Origin: an uncultured Candidatus Competibacteraceae bacterium
GTDB lineage: Bacteria; Pseudomonadota; Gammaproteobacteria; Competibacterales; Competibacteraceae
DNA length: 11,195 bases
Reading direction: 5' to 3'
Assembly (NCBI GenBank): GCA_937872125.1
Contig: CALMNY010000488.1
Location: forward strand, 1-11,195
In this document: positions 2,083-7,997 of the stretch, piece after piece
How the letters are laid out: every line of letters begins with the position of its first letter
How positions within the stretch are numbered: the stretch's first letter is position 1
Notes under the pieces: generated by a model
What the model saw: only the letters and a program-made list of their open reading frames with translations
What the model was told of the DNA's origin: nothing
The model's database searches: none
Made by a program: the position numbers and the translations under genes

Positions 2083-2877
2083 TTAAAGAGGTTGGCCGTA
2101 TTTTTGCGAGTAATGCGCCCTGGCCTGCCCCATCCAGTCTTCGCGGCGGATGCGGCCAGCAAACTTGATAACGGCTTCGATCCGTTCGATATCGGCGTCA
2201 CTTAGTGTGGCCAGATCCCGGAAACTGGCGATGCCGCAGGCATGCAGCTTCTTTTCCAGGGCTGGGCCAATCCCGTTGATCAGTTTGAGATCGTCGGGCG
2301 TTTCCGCACGAGGAGGCGGTTCAGGGGCGGGCGGCGGGGCAGGCGCAACTGCGGGCGGCGCCATTGTGACCGGTAGTTCTACGGCAACGGACGGTTCCGC
2401 CACGACGATTTCCACAGGTTCCATCGCCGCCGGGGGTTCGGTGGAGGTAGATGTGGCGGTGGGAGATTCTGCCGCCGCCACCGGGGCGGCCGCCGGGGCG
2501 GATTCTGCATTGGCCTGATCCGGCTGAGCAAACCCACCATGGCGCAGGACCGCAAAGTAATCGTTCCACCACTGATTCTGGGTTTGGATCCAGCGTTGCA
2601 ATACTTCTTCCATCTGCCGCACCCACGACGCCATCATTTCCGGGGTTCCCTTTTCCTGGGCGACTCGTCGCACCCATTCCTCCACCCAGGCCGCCTCCTG
2701 TTCCAGCGACCGCCGGACCGCCGCTTCCCAACTGGTCAAGTTTTTCAGATAGGTTTCCCGCCAGGCCTCGATGCCGGTTGGCGGCTGCAATGGTATGGCC
2801 GCACAGAGACTTTCCCACAAACGCTTCTGGGCGTCGGTCCAGGTTTTGAGAATTTCTTCATGAATCCACGGTTTCAT
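2083..2877 (-). CDS. Helical protein with C-terminal helix-hairpin-helix domain
   Basis: This protein has 264 residues in three parts. Residues 1-113 are helical and rich in Trp, Glu and Gln (e.g. WTDAQKRLW, QTQNQWW), reminiscent of phasins or the PhaE subunit of class III PHA synthase. Residues about 116-193 are a low-complexity Ala/Pro/Glu linker. Residues about 195-262 form a helix-hairpin-helix-like domain (DDLKLINGIGPALEKKL, then GIASFRDLATLSDADI and EDWMGQA), of the type appended to several bacterial proteins. Such domains usually bind DNA or mediate protein contacts. No signal peptide or membrane span is seen. It heads the minus-strand group with the asnS remnant and the kinase. An AGGG about 10 nt upstream is a modest ribosome binding site. 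The HHH domain is well supported; the phasin resemblance is inference. Confidence 0.82.
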   Translation of the reverse strand: MKPWIHEEILKTWTDAQKRLWESLCAAIPLQPPTGIEAWRETYLKNLTSWEAAVRRSLEQEAAWVEEWVRRVAQEKGTPEMMASWVRQMEEVLQRWIQTQNQWWNDYFAVLRHGGFAQPDQANAESAPAAAPVAAAESPTATSTSTEPPAAMEPVEIVVAEPSVAVELPVTMAPPAVAPAPPPAPEPPPRAETPDDLKLINGIGPALEKKLHACGIASFRDLATLSDADIERIEAVIKFAGRIRREDWMGQARAHYSQKYGQPL

Positions 2878-3060
2878 GGTTGGTTACCCTCACAATCAAT
2901 GATTCGGCCGCTGGCTCCGAGCCATTGCCCGAATCGCGCACGGCGCCACGTCTTGTCATTTTAGGCGATCTTGGGGCGGAGCGCCGGTTAAAACCAACCC
3001 GGTTGCGGGCGGGTTGCAATCCAGGGCAAGCCGCGCCGCCCCGATGCGCGCCCGCCGGCT

Positions 3061-3069
3061 TGCTATAAT
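3061..3069 (+). promoter_or_regulatory. Extended -10 promoter of cysE
   Basis: The sequence TGCTATAAT matches the extended -10 pattern TGnTATAAT exactly, with the perfect TATAAT at 3064-3069. No good -35 hexamer sits 16-18 bp upstream, which is tolerated at extended -10 promoters. Transcription would start near 3076, giving a leader of about 60 nt for cysE. Confidence 0.6.
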
Positions 3070-3080
3070 CCCCGGCCTTA

Positions 3081-3099
3081 CCACCGCTGCGTGCGGTGG
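3081..3099 (+). promoter_or_regulatory. Perfect hairpin in the cysE leader
   Basis: CCACCGC (3081-3087) and GCGGTGG (3093-3099) form a perfect 7-bp GC-rich stem with a 5-nt loop, starting a few bases after the predicted transcription start. No T-tract follows, so it is not a standard terminator. It may stabilise the 5' end or take part in leader regulation; it matches no riboswitch class I recognise. Confidence 0.4.
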
Positions 3100-3136
3100 G
3101 GTTTCCTCCATCAGCAACTGTCTGGACACATTCATC

Positions 3137-3964
3137 ATGGCGTTTTGGCAACGTCTGCGGGAAGACGTTTATTCCGTATTCGACCGCGATCCGGCGGCGC
3201 GCACGGTATTTGAGGTTCTCACCGCCTATCCGGGCATTCATGCGCTCCTGTTCCATCGGCTCAACCATGCGCTGTGGACTCTGGGCCTGAAATGGCTGGC
3301 GCGTTTTCTGTCGGCTATCGCCCGTTGGTTGACCGGGATCGAGATTCATCCGGGCGCTCGAATCGGCCGGCGGTTTTTCATTGATCATGGCATGGGCGTC
3401 GTGATCGGCGAAACCGCCGAGATCGGCGACGACTGCACCCTGTATCAGGGGGTCACCCTCGGCGGCACCAGTTGGAACAAGGGCAAGCGTCATCCTACCC
3501 TCGGTAACAACGTGGTGATCGGCGCTGGCGCGAAGGTGCTGGGGCCGTTCAAGGTGGGCGATAACGCGCGTATTGGTTCCAACTCGGTCGTGATCAAGGA
3601 AGTGCCGGCTAACGCGACGGTGGTTGGCGTGCCGGGGCGAGTGGTCGAAGCGGGCGGTGCGACTGATGACGTGCGCCGGGAGATCGCGCGCAAACTCGGG
3701 TTCGACGCTTACGGCGCTACTCCCGACCTGCCCGATCCCGAGGCCCACGCCATTAATCAGATGCTGGATCATATTCACGCTCTGGACCGCACGGTCCGCC
3801 AGCTTTGCCAGGCGTTGCGCGATGCGGGCCTTGAGCCGGGCGAACTGCGCCTGCCCGAATTGAACGGCTGCACGCTGCACTCGGCGGCCAGCCAGGAGGG
3901 CTGGTCCTCAGCCGGCGCTACGGATGCGGCTGAAAATCGCCCGCAGGCCGACGCTTCAACGTAG
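3137..3964 (+). CDS. cysE: Serine O-acetyltransferase
   Basis: CysE transfers acetyl from acetyl-CoA to L-serine, giving O-acetylserine, the committed precursor of cysteine. The protein has 275 residues and a short N-terminus ([37 protein letters not shown]), as in the compact bacterial CysE form. The left-handed beta-helix hexapeptide region spans about 69-180. His84 in [13 protein letters not shown] and His119 in KGKRHPTLG correspond to E. coli active-site His158 and His193. The C-terminus (about 190-275) is a longer, partly low-complexity extension. The start at 3137 is chosen because the family match begins there; an upstream in-frame ATG at 3014 precedes the predicted promoter. No clear Shine-Dalgarno is seen. 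It is followed after 5 nt by the IscU-like gene, so cysteine synthesis is coupled to Fe-S assembly, as in the Azotobacter nif cluster with its cysE. Confidence 0.93.
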
Positions 3965-3969
3965 CCGAT

Positions 3970-4425
3970 ATGCAACCCTTGAGCGCAGCGGCGCAGACGT
4001 ATTTTGAGCAACCGCGTCATGGCGGGGCGCTGGACACGGCGGCTCCCGACGTGGTGACGGTGCGGGTGGATGAACCGGTCAGCGGGGCGATTCTGCAAGT
4101 ACAGCTAAAGGTGGATGCGATGGGTTTGATTGTCGCCACCCGGTTCAAGGCGTATGGCTGCGGCTGGCTGATCGCCTGCGGCGCGTGGTTGACTGAGTGG
4201 CTCCAGGGCCGGACGCTGGCGGAAGTCGCACGCTTCCGCCATCACGAGCTGGTCGAAACTCTCGATGTACCGCCGGAGAAACTCTATTGCGCCGTACTGG
4301 CTGAAACGGCGCTCCAGGCGGCGCTGCGCGCGGAAGCTGCGAAACCAACCGCGCCCGCCGCTATCCAATCCGATCAATGCCAATCATCGTCATCAGGAGA
4401 TTCTTATGACCATCACTCTCACTGA
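3970..4425 (+). CDS. Atypical IscU/NifU-N-like Fe-S scaffold protein
   Basis: The 151 residues align along IscU: YFEQPRHGGALD matches the IscU N-terminus, then RFKAYGCGWLIA, LTEWLQGRTLAEV and PPEKLYCAVLAETAL. IscU builds [2Fe-2S] clusters from sulfide delivered by a cysteine desulfurase. Here only two of the usual five ligand or active-site positions (E. coli Cys37, Asp39, Cys63, His105, Cys106) are kept: Cys64 and Cys107. Cys37 is Ser38 (codon AGC), Asp39 is Ala40 and His105 is Tyr106; an extra Cys70 is present. The last ~25 residues are a Ser/His-rich tail whose codons overlap the start and Shine-Dalgarno of the downstream iscA-type gene. It lies between cysE and iscA with no iscS, hscBA or fdx in the window. 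It may be a divergent scaffold, an accessory carrier or a regulator. Confidence 0.85.
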   Translation: MQPLSAAAQTYFEQPRHGGALDTAAPDVVTVRVDEPVSGAILQVQLKVDAMGLIVATRFKAYGCGWLIACGAWLTEWLQGRTLAEVARFRHHELVETLDVPPEKLYCAVLAETALQAALRAEAAKPTAPAAIQSDQCQSSSSGDSYDHHSH

Positions 4426-4729
4426 AGCCGCCGCCGCCCGCGCCCACGCCTTTCTCGCCAGGAAGGAACAAGCGCAAGGATTGCGGCTGGGCGTGCGCAA
4501 CACGGGCTGTTCCGGCTATATGTACACCGTTGGACTGGCGGACGCCATCGCGCCCGACGATCAGGTGTTTGAATCGCAGGGTGTCAAGCTGGTGGTTAGC
4601 GCCAAAAACCTGCCCTATCTGGACGGCATGGAAGTGGATTACGCCAAGCAGGGGCTTAACGAAGGCTTTCGCTTTCGCAACCCCAACGTGAAGGACACCT
4701 GCGGCTGCGGGGAAAGCTTCAACGTCTGA
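4406..4729 (+). CDS. iscA: IscA/ErpA-family A-type Fe-S carrier
   Basis: The protein has 107 residues, the same length as E. coli IscA. It carries all three family cysteines at the same positions: Cys35 (NTGCSGYMY) and Cys99/Cys101 (DTCGCGESF). These bind iron or an Fe-S cluster, which A-type carriers pass to apo-targets in the cytoplasm. The start at 4406 has AGGAG at 4395-4399 with a 6-nt spacer. It overlaps the end of the IscU-like gene by 20 nt in another frame, implying translational coupling. Whether it is functionally IscA, ErpA or SufA cannot be settled by sequence alone; the neighbourhood favours IscA. Confidence 0.92.
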   Translation: MTITLTEAAAARAHAFLARKEQAQGLRLGVRNTGCSGYMYTVGLADAIAPDDQVFESQGVKLVVSAKNLPYLDGMEVDYAKQGLNEGFRFRNPNVKDTCGCGESFNV

Positions 4730-5937: not shown

Positions 5938-6819
5938 TCAGGCCGCCGCTGGCAGCGCAGCGCGCAGCTTTTTCATGGCATTGCTTTCCAATTGCCGGAT
6001 GCGTTCGGCGGAGACCTGATATTCGGCGGCCAGGTCGTGCAGAGTCGGCTTATCGTCGCTCAGCCAGCGCCGCTGGACGATGGCGCGGCTGCGCGGGTCC
6101 AACCGCCCCAGCGCTTCGCTCAACTGACGGGTAGTGCGCACTTCCCAGTCTTCCCGCTCCAGCGCCGCCGCTGGATCGGCCTGATCGTCGCGCAGGTAGG
6201 CCGAGGGCGTGTAAGCTTCGGCTTCATCATCGCCGTCGGCATCGGGGAGCGGATCAAAGGAAACATCGTGACCGCTCAACCGCGATTCCATTTCCAGCAC
6301 ATGTTCGGGGCTGACACCCAGCTCGCGGGCGACCGTATTCACTTCCTCGCCGTTCAGCCAGCCCAGGCGTTTCTTGGCGCCGCGCAGTTTGAAGAACAGT
6401 TTGCGCTGGGCCTTGGTGGTGGCGACCTTGACGATCCGCCAGTTGCGCAAGATGAATTCATGAATCTCGGCGCGAATCCAGTGCACTGCAAACGACACCA
6501 GCCGCACGCCATGGGCCGGGTCGAAGCGTTTAACCGCCTTCATCAGGCCGACATTGCCTTCCTGGATCAGATCAGCCAGCGGCAAGCCATACCCGACATA
6601 ACCGCGAGCAATATGCGCCACGAAGCGCAGATGAGCCACGATCAGCCGCTGAGCTGCTTCCAAATCATTGCGCAGCCGCAGCCGCTGGGCCAGTTCCTGC
6701 TCTTCTTCGGCGCTCAGCATCGGCGCCTGGTTGATCGCCTGGAGATAACCGTCCAGACTGTCCACCGGCGCCGGCAGGTTCGGTAGGCGGGGAACCAGCG
6801 CAGTCGTCGTCATCGTCAT
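5938..6819 (-). CDS. rpoH: RNA polymerase heat-shock sigma factor sigma-32
   Basis: RpoH directs RNA polymerase to heat-shock promoters such as those of chaperones and proteases. The 293-residue product shows region 2 ([20 protein letters not shown], then [18 protein letters not shown] from residue 114). It has the diagnostic RpoH box QRKLFFKLR (138-146), which separates it from RpoD and RpoS, and a region 4.2 helix-turn-helix ([20 protein letters not shown]). ATG 6819 is preferred over ATG 6813 because GGGAGG sits 5 nt upstream. It follows ftsY by 98 nt, whereas in E. coli ftsE and ftsX lie between. It has its own promoter inside a CIRCE operator and its own terminator, so it is an independent, apparently HrcA-regulated unit. 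Confidence 0.96.
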
Positions 6820-6848
6820 TCACTCCTCCCTCAAGTTGGCATGGCCTG

Positions 6849-6878
6849 ATTTTAGCACTCGCGCGGTTTGAGTGCCAA
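6849..6878 (-). promoter_or_regulatory. Sigma-70 promoter of rpoH overlapping CIRCE
   Basis: On the minus strand TTGGCA (6878 to 6873, five of six to TTGACA) and TAAAAT (6854 to 6849, five of six to TATAAT) are separated by 18 bp. The -10 is preceded by TGC, an extended -10. Transcription would start near 6842, about 22 nt before ATG 6819. Both hexamers lie in or against the arms of the inverted repeat. Confidence 0.7.
6852..6878. promoter_or_regulatory. CIRCE element (HrcA operator) at rpoH
   Basis: The plus strand reads TTAGCACTC, nine bases, then GAGTGCCAA. The CIRCE consensus is TTAGCACTC-N9-GAGTGCTAA, so 17 of 18 arm positions match with the exact spacing. CIRCE is the operator of the heat-sensitive repressor HrcA, usually found at groESL or dnaK. 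Here it covers the -35 through -10 of rpoH, so HrcA binding would block the polymerase. hrcA itself is not in the window. Confidence 0.9.
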
Positions 6879-6917
6879 ATCCGGCCAGGAGTTCCATGAC
6901 CGCCGCACTACATGGGT

Positions 6918-7997
6918 TCAATCCGCCCCTTCTTCATCCAGCAGGGCGGCGACAAACTCGGCGGCGTCGAATGTGCGCAGGTCCTCAATGCCTTCACCGA
7001 CGCCGATGAAGCGGATCGGCAAGCCGAGCCGGCGGGCGATGGCGAACACGATGCCGCCCTTGGCGGTGCCATCGAGCTTGGTCAGAATCAGGCCGGTCAC
7101 GCCGACCGCTTCGTGGAATTGCACCGCCTGATTCAGCGCGTTCTGGCCGGTGCTGGCGTCCACCACCAGCAACACCTCGTGCGGGGCGCTGGCGTCCACC
7201 TTGCCCATCACCCGCTTGATCTTCCTGAGTTCCTCCATCAGATTCGCCTGGGTGTGCAACCGTCCGGCGGTATCGGCGATCACCACGTCTACCCGCCGGG
7301 CCTGGGCGGCCTGAATCGCGTCGTAGATTACCGAGGCGGCGTCGGCCCCGCTGCGCTGGGCGATGACCGGAATCCGGTTGCGCTCGCCCCAGACCTGCAA
7401 CTGTTCGACGGCGGCGGCGCGGAAGGTGTCGCCAGCCGCCAACAATACCGAATGCCCCGCGCCTTGCAGCCACTGGGCCAGTTTGCCGATGGTGGTGGTC
7501 TTGCCGACGCCGTTGACCCCGACCATCAGGATCACGTAGGGCCGGGAGTCGCTGGGCTGCCACGGTTGCTGGCAGGGTGCGAGGATGGCGAGCAATTCCT
7601 CATTCAGCGCCTGGAGCAGCGCCGGCACATCGTTCAACTGCTGGTGCGCCACCCGCTCGGTCAGCCGTTTCATCAGGTGCTGGGTCAGTTCCACACCGAC
7701 ATCGGCCAGCAGCAGGCGGCTTTCCAGTTCTTCCAGCGCCTCGTCGTCCAGCTTCTTGCCGGCGAACAGGCGGGACAGGCCGCTGACCAGGCCCTGGCGG
7801 GTGCGCCGCAGCCGGTCGCGCAAGCGAACCAACCGTTCGGGTTTGGGCGCGGCCGCTTCGGCGGTAGCCTCGGGCGCACGTTGCCGGCCAAACGGCAGGT
7901 GAATGGGGCGGTTCAGAATCTCGAACAGGCTGGGCTTCTTGCGCTCCGCTTCCGGGGTAGCCGGCGCGGGGGCAGAATCAGGCTTGGATTCGATCAT
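6918..7997 (-). CDS. ftsY: Signal recognition particle receptor FtsY
   Basis: FtsY is the SRP-GTPase receptor that docks SRP-ribosome complexes at the inner membrane for co-translational insertion. The 359-residue protein has a short Ala/Pro/Lys N-terminal region (about 1-55, shorter than the acidic A domain of E. coli). An N domain follows (about 60-140; [11 protein letters not shown]), then the G domain with P-loop GVNGVGKTT (160-168), DTAGR (242-246), TKLD (306-309) and GVGEGIEDL (332-340). Ala/Glu-rich residues occupy the start, and an arginine-rich helix ([16 protein letters not shown]) precedes the N domain, consistent with membrane targeting. Its ATG overlaps the upstream gene's stop (ATGA, 7994-7997), implying coupled translation. 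ftsE and ftsX, the usual downstream partners, are absent here. Confidence 0.96.

Follow-up and report, generated by a model that had tools for sequence, protein, structure and literature searches.

The locus examined here raises the question of whether the heat-shock sigma factor sigma-32 can be placed under the control of the repressor HrcA, and through which rpoH promoter such control would be exerted. In an 11,195-nt stretch of DNA from an uncultured Candidatus Competibacteraceae bacterium (hereafter the window), a CIRCE operator lies in the short interval before rpoH. Comparison of this interval with related sequences leads us to propose, with a probability of about 0.78, that the HrcA operator overlaps two rpoH promoters, one of the sigma-E type and one of the sigma-70 type, wiring HrcA above sigma-32.

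Results

Structure of the rpoH upstream region

The rpoH gene of the window was identified by profile match (two NCBIfam sigma-32 models above their cut-offs, TIGR02392 scoring 405 bits where 323 are required), and its product contains a QRKLFFKLR stretch, which we take to be the RpoH box. The genes and promoter-like elements around the operator are the following:

5938..6819, minus strand: rpoH, heat-shock sigma factor sigma-32, 293 aa (profile match)
6823..6830, minus strand: putative ribosome-binding site of rpoH, GGGAGGAG (by eye)
6849..6854, minus strand: sigma-70-like -10, TAAAAT, its TAA lying in the gene-proximal arm and its AAT just after it
6852..6878, minus strand: CIRCE operator (predicted HrcA site), reading TTGGCACTC-AAACCGCGC-GAGTGCTAA on the rpoH strand, 1 mismatch in 18
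6867..6871, minus strand: sigma-E-type -10, TCAAA, 17 nt after the -35
6873..6878, minus strand: sigma-70-like -35, TTGGCA, inside the gene-distal arm (from sequence)
6889..6895, minus strand: sigma-E-type -35, GGAACTC, consensus GGAACTT (from sequence and promoter scan)
6918..7997, minus strand: ftsY, the same-strand upstream neighbor of rpoH, separated from it by a 98-nt gap

Across this gap (6820-6917) ftsY is followed directly by rpoH; in E. coli K-12 it is ftsX that adjoins rpoH.

Read on the plus strand, the operator (6852-6878) is TTAGCACTC-GCGCGGTTT-GAGTGCCAA, which agrees with the CIRCE consensus TTAGCACTC-N9-GAGTGCTAA at 17 of the 18 arm positions and has the exact N9 spacing. No further CIRCE match was present in the window at up to three mismatches, and none occurred in 200 dinucleotide-preserving shuffles of it. 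Because the rpoH start codon is at 6819, the operator occupies positions -33 to -59. A preliminary description of this DNA had reported an inverted repeat one mismatch away from the CIRCE consensus, and this repeat is indeed present at 6852-6878 and absent from the shuffles. That description had extended the operator over 6849-6878, of which 6852-6878 holds and the remaining three bases are the end of the -10.

On the rpoH strand the sigma-70-like hexamers form TTGGCA-N18-TAAAAT, with a TGC before the -10 that presumably makes it an extended -10. Each hexamer matches the sigma-70 consensus, taken for scoring from general knowledge, at five of six positions, and the 18-nt spacing falls inside the range of 16-18 nt. 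Both the -35 inside the repeat and the -10 overlapping it, as described earlier, were found on this strand; the promoter had been placed 22-60 nt upstream of rpoH, which is nearly right, the hexamers measuring -30 to -59 relative to the start codon. What the earlier account of a sigma-70 promoter under the operator missed is a second, overlapping promoter of the sigma-E type. The signal GGAACTC-N17-TCAAA scored 9.7 of a possible 11 and fits the pattern GGAACTT, 15-17 nt, TCNNA; its -35 matches at six of seven positions, and its spacing is 17 nt, while 16 nt is commoner. In the TCAAA element, TC is the end of the gene-distal CIRCE arm and AAA the opening three bases of the spacer. Since this sigma-E-type promoter also overlaps the operator, the operator probably closes two promoters and not one.

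HrcA, sigma-E and chaperone genes in the source genome

The source assembly (3.49 Mb in 553 contigs, 81% complete) contains a single hrcA match (HrcA family, 230 bits), a 358-aa ORF that starts at 2027 of locus L001 and has its own CIRCE at 2044-2070, together with rpoE (TIGR02939, 316 bits against a cut-off of 236). At up to three mismatches the assembly holds three CIRCEs, located before groES (0 mismatches), hrcA (1) and rpoH (1), and the reversed-pattern control gave none. The grpE-dnaK-dnaJ genes, on another contig, have no CIRCE at this threshold; a sigma-32-like sequence, CTTGAAT-N13-CCCCAA, lies 91 nt before grpE (the best hit of a scan run without shuffle control). Upstream of groES, a sigma-32-like CTTGAAA-N13-CCCCAC (likewise without shuffle control) is followed by TTGACA-N16-TATGAT running into the CIRCE. 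Within this incomplete assembly, these sequences would place groESL, rpoH and hrcA itself under HrcA, and the dnaK operon under sigma-32.

The searches for hrcA and for further CIRCE sites, both suggested in the preliminary description, thus returned one hrcA and, at up to three mismatches, operators before groES and hrcA only. The circuit inferred there, with HrcA and sigma-32 acting in series, fits this genome, in which the dnaK operon has a sigma-32-like sequence and no CIRCE and groES has both. In L001, hrcA and a NAD-kinase-like gene (951-2027 and 2173-3072) are divergent, and hrcA faces a catalase-like ORF (by eye); hrcA stands apart from grpE-dnaK-dnaJ in this genome.

Conservation within the family

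The family search covered 39 genomes, 35 of which had an rpoH match, and 30 loci were read, the window's included. A CIRCE with at most two mismatches precedes rpoH in 29 of these 30 loci (two with no mismatch, 24 with one and three with two), so that the conservation of the arms in close relatives, which had been named as a check, was confirmed. GAAC stands 10-12 nt before the operator in 25 of the 30 loci and is absent from five. Directly after the operator, AAT was found in 24 of 30 loci and a T at the third base in 29 of 30. Among the matches listed, the nearest named rpoH came from Plasticicumulans acidivorans (71%), and family locus L294 has an operator region with the same reading as this locus.

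Searching the 39 family genomes for hrcA gave 36 with the gene. Three loci keep the operator in genomes in which hrcA was not found: L287 (G752), L290 (G747) and L292 (G728), whose genomes are 96%, 62% and 98% complete, respectively. A 1.2-Mb family member (locus L291, genome G739) shows the reverse arrangement, its rpoH operator being degraded to six mismatches while its genome keeps hrcA; on this account the idea that operator and hrcA are always lost together was rejected as an absolute rule.

Operator, hrcA and sigma-E signal in wider relatives

A wider set of rpoH loci was picked by protein similarity alone; at least 568 were confirmed, and the best 80 of these were kept. When up to four mismatches and a distance of at most 200 nt from the rpoH match were allowed, 36 of these best 80 loci had a CIRCE. 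Among the same best 80, hrcA was found in 33 of the 36 genomes with an rpoH CIRCE versus 4 of the 44 without one (Fisher 1e-14, uncorrected for relatedness or incomplete assemblies). The four genomes with hrcA and no rpoH operator are those of L003, L005, L038 and L042; the operator is present and hrcA was not found for L017 and L039, and also for L025, a four-mismatch site. A missing hrcA counts as weak evidence, because many of the genomes are metagenome assemblies.

In most CIRCE loci of this set, GGAACTT or a close form stands at a nearly fixed distance before the CIRCE, and TCNNA is found at the end of the first arm. The region was scanned for GGAACTT-N15..17-TCNNA within 200 nt, a further point being given when the base preceding the final A was A or G. 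A score of at least 9.7 was reached by 20 of 37 CIRCE loci (window included) versus 0.65% of shuffles, and by 30 of 44 loci without CIRCE versus 0.68% of shuffles, these shuffles keeping single-base composition only. In 32 of the 37 CIRCE loci the top-scoring -35 starts 16 or 17 nt upstream of the operator, which brings the sigma-E -10 onto the operator. In the other five (L009, L018, L025, L039 and L078) the best -35 is off this place, L039 beginning too near its contig end to include it, but the sigma-70-like -10 retains its T in each of the five. A sigma-E signal scoring at least 9 was present in 37 of the 44 loci that lack CIRCE, and none of these 37 has TANNNT at the corresponding offset. 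From this distribution, the sigma-70-like box goes with the operator and the sigma-E signal is independent of it.

Operators of rpoH compared with operators of groES

The CIRCE before groESL is the same operator as that before rpoH, and in the source genome it has no mismatch. It follows TTGACA-N16-TATGAT, whereas the rpoH CIRCE contains or overlaps promoter hexamers. This difference was examined by comparing rpoH CIRCEs with 37 groES CIRCEs from the same class; the Fisher values of the comparison treat related sequences as independent and are indicative only. The rpoH information profile was built from 130 sequences with enough flank, 128 after removal of near-duplicates, many of which had been selected for GAAC. 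It peaks at GGAACTT, both arms, spacer positions 1-3 and the AAT after the second arm, with almost no information elsewhere. The groES profile (37 CIRCEs) has TTGAC and TATNA ahead of the operator. By these profiles, groES and rpoH operators are built differently.

The first alternative to two promoters is that HrcA controls a sigma-70 rpoH promoter only, GGAACTC and TCAAA being functionless in this organism. The TTGGCA-N18-TAAAAT reading with its preceding TGC agrees with this explanation, as does the conservation of the -10 T, which persists even in all five CIRCE loci with a displaced sigma-E -35. We nevertheless consider it unlikely, given the features that accompany the operator specifically at rpoH. 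In an unselected set of 35 rpoH loci with a CIRCE of at most three mismatches, GAAC stands 10-12 nt before the operator in 29 of the 34 loci in which it could be scored (one had too short an upstream region) versus 1 of 37 groES sites, and A occupies spacer position 3 in 28 of 35 versus 4 of 37. The recurrence of GAAC in most of the family and the presence of rpoE in the genome also speak against functionless sigma-E elements.

The converse alternative, to which we give the same low standing, is that only the sigma-E promoter is used and TAAAAT is something else, for example an extended HrcA contact or part of the start region. In its favor, it is the sigma-E signal that persists where CIRCE is missing, and also in E. 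coli. Against it stands the sixth base of the -10, which is T in 32 of the 35 unselected rpoH CIRCEs versus 3 of 37 groES sites. This T is not a symmetric extension of the operator, since it is conserved on the rpoH side only, the mirror position upstream being A in only 6 of the 35 loci. In the genome set of 98 rpoH loci, mostly selected for GAAC, the spacer A was present in 84 and the T in 90. The two-promoter reading has its own exceptions. The three unselected loci without the -10 T count against it, as do the five family loci without GAAC at 10-12 nt, the five CIRCE loci with a displaced -35, the imperfect -35 and 17-nt spacing of the window, the genomes in which only one of operator and hrcA was found, and the many genomes of the samples below that lack the combined pattern.

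It is considerably less probable that the operator is a relict, or the target of a factor other than HrcA. A few genomes with the site in which hrcA was not found would agree with a relict, but in the best 80 loci the site co-occurs with hrcA, and the arms carry near full information in the 128 loci, which were themselves chosen as CIRCE matches. Moreover, the loci without CIRCE are mostly in genomes in which hrcA was not found, yet they mostly keep the sigma-E signal. Least probable of all is that the repeat acts in mRNA, as a stem-loop affecting stability or translation: its arms could pair in read-through transcripts from ftsY, but transcripts from either promoter are predicted to start within or beyond the repeat and so would not hold both arms, spacer conservation stops at positions 1-3, and the folding of 6640-6846, from which the repeat is excluded, is not unusual either (z -1.21). 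The same folding value led us to reject an RNA thermometer in the rpoH leader and the beginning of the coding sequence.

The single mismatch of the window's operator, in TTGGCACTC, was also considered as an adaptation for the -35 and not retained. It occurs in the gene-distal arm of 34 of 128 rpoH loci versus 1 of 128 in the other arm. The groES sites are biased in the same way (4 versus 0 of 37), which makes the arm mismatch weak evidence for such an adaptation, and the comparison of rpoH against groES gave p values of 0.04 and 0.51 in two rpoH sets. The G in the gene-distal arm is accordingly not special to rpoH, being shared by those four groES sites.

Distribution of the combined pattern

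A strict sigma-E-plus-CIRCE pattern, GAAC-N10..12-TTRGCACTC-N9-GAGTGCTA, was carried by 134 of the 369 class genomes searched and missing from 235, and its reversed-pattern control matched none of the 369. Ninety of the 134 loci were read (30 plus 60). In the first 30, the window's included, rpoH adjoins in every case. After L144 and L147 were left out as duplicates, the 88 distinct records comprised 86 rpoH loci, one groES locus (L152) and one clpB-like locus (L167, by eye), and the latter two contradict any use of the strict pattern as an rpoH-only signature. The clpB-like case (G152:C8, operator at 870-896) places GAAC plus CIRCE upstream of a clpB-like gene in a gammaproteobacterial genome.

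In a phylum-wide sample the strict pattern was found in 5 of 299 genomes, all five of them Gammaproteobacteria; the genomes from other classes, about 212 by an eye count, were all without it. Three of the five had already been counted, namely the window's genome, G166 with the groES locus and G152 with the clpB-like one, so that only G447 and G624 add to the count. This sample was drawn differently from the 369-genome class sample and includes many genomes of the class without a match; the two frequencies (134/369 and 5/299) indicate that the frequency of the pattern depends strongly on lineage sampling. As judged from these pattern matches, the operator layout is not peculiar to this organism and is common to many genomes of the class.

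Discussion

Relation to known systems

Upstream of rpoH in E. coli K-12 we read TGAACTT-N16-TCTGA, which we take to be rpoH P3. This region has no CIRCE, its best CIRCE-like stretch having eight mismatches, and an HrcA profile search of the E. coli control genome gave no match. The E. coli P3 region resembles the window in having sigma-E-type -35 and -10 elements before rpoH, and RpoE is present in both. In the available portions of two reviews, an RpoE-dependent promoter P3 is described before E. coli rpoH (PMC8103513, PMC8745692), and one of them relates that RpoE was discovered through rpoH P3 and gives GGAACTT as the RpoE -35 target (PMC8103513). RpoE binding at the rpoH promoter is described for Vibrio alginolyticus in the accessible part of PMC4890791.

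The presence of a CIRCE at rpoH has a precedent, one having been predicted before rpoH of Geobacter sulfurreducens, at position -51 and with no mismatch, in the available text of Rodionov et al. 2004 (PMC545781). According to the same text, G. sulfurreducens resembles the window's genome in having the same operator consensus at rpoH, groESL and hrcA; it differs in belonging to the delta class, in that the site is a prediction, and in that an overlapping sigma-E promoter is undescribed there. In the available portions of PMC10696704, PMC13171946 and PMC3989490 a CIRCE before rpoH is not reported, and those of PMC1978210 and PMC10490939 contain nothing bearing on it. Within the partly accessible literature searched, neither the fusion of a sigma-E promoter with CIRCE at rpoH nor its spread through the class was found in print. 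For Campylobacter jejuni, the accessible text of PMC8533110 describes HrcA whose DNA binding falls at 42 C and rises with GroE. This system would supply the heat- and GroE-sensing step proposed for the window's organism; it differs in that HrcA is paired with HspR at chaperone genes and rpoH is not concerned.

A proposed circuit

The two-promoter reading starts from what was observed: the sequence elements are present and conserved, they co-occur with hrcA, and the genome has the gene set described above. From these we infer promoter use, HrcA binding, the sensing of heat and GroEL, and kinetics. At normal temperature, with GroEL free, HrcA would occupy the operator and exclude either holoenzyme by a steric block, covering the sigma-E -10 and most of both sigma-70 hexamers. 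Heat or chaperonin overload would inactivate HrcA, upon which rpoH would be transcribed by sigma-70 and, under envelope stress, also by sigma-E. Sigma-32 would then drive grpE-dnaK-dnaJ and, together with the release of HrcA, groESL. The additional GroEL would re-arm HrcA and close rpoH in a negative feedback, the input to sigma-32 being open only when HrcA is off. Because HrcA would shut both entries to rpoH, sigma-32 synthesis would be gated by chaperonin status.

A broader proposal, which we hold at even odds, is that HrcA is the gatekeeper of sigma-32 in much of the Gammaproteobacteria through a single operator fused into both rpoH promoters, that envelope stress can therefore raise sigma-32 only under chaperonin overload, and that E. 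coli P3 is a remnant left after loss of hrcA and the operator. If this is correct, many gammaproteobacteria run a circuit unlike the textbook heat shock of E. coli, whose arrangement could have arisen by loss. A chaperonin-sensing repressor above sigma-32 could then veto the envelope-stress input, and the HrcA, sigma-E and sigma-32 systems would meet at about 45 bases with AND-NOT logic.

Other features of the window

Two further features were noted by eye. At positions 1-120, a tandem-like repeat coding EEPATAQPAPFQ lies in the truncated end of a Ser/Thr-kinase-like ORF, and at 3014-4729 on the plus strand cysE-like, IscU-like and IscA-like ORFs follow one another in a run.
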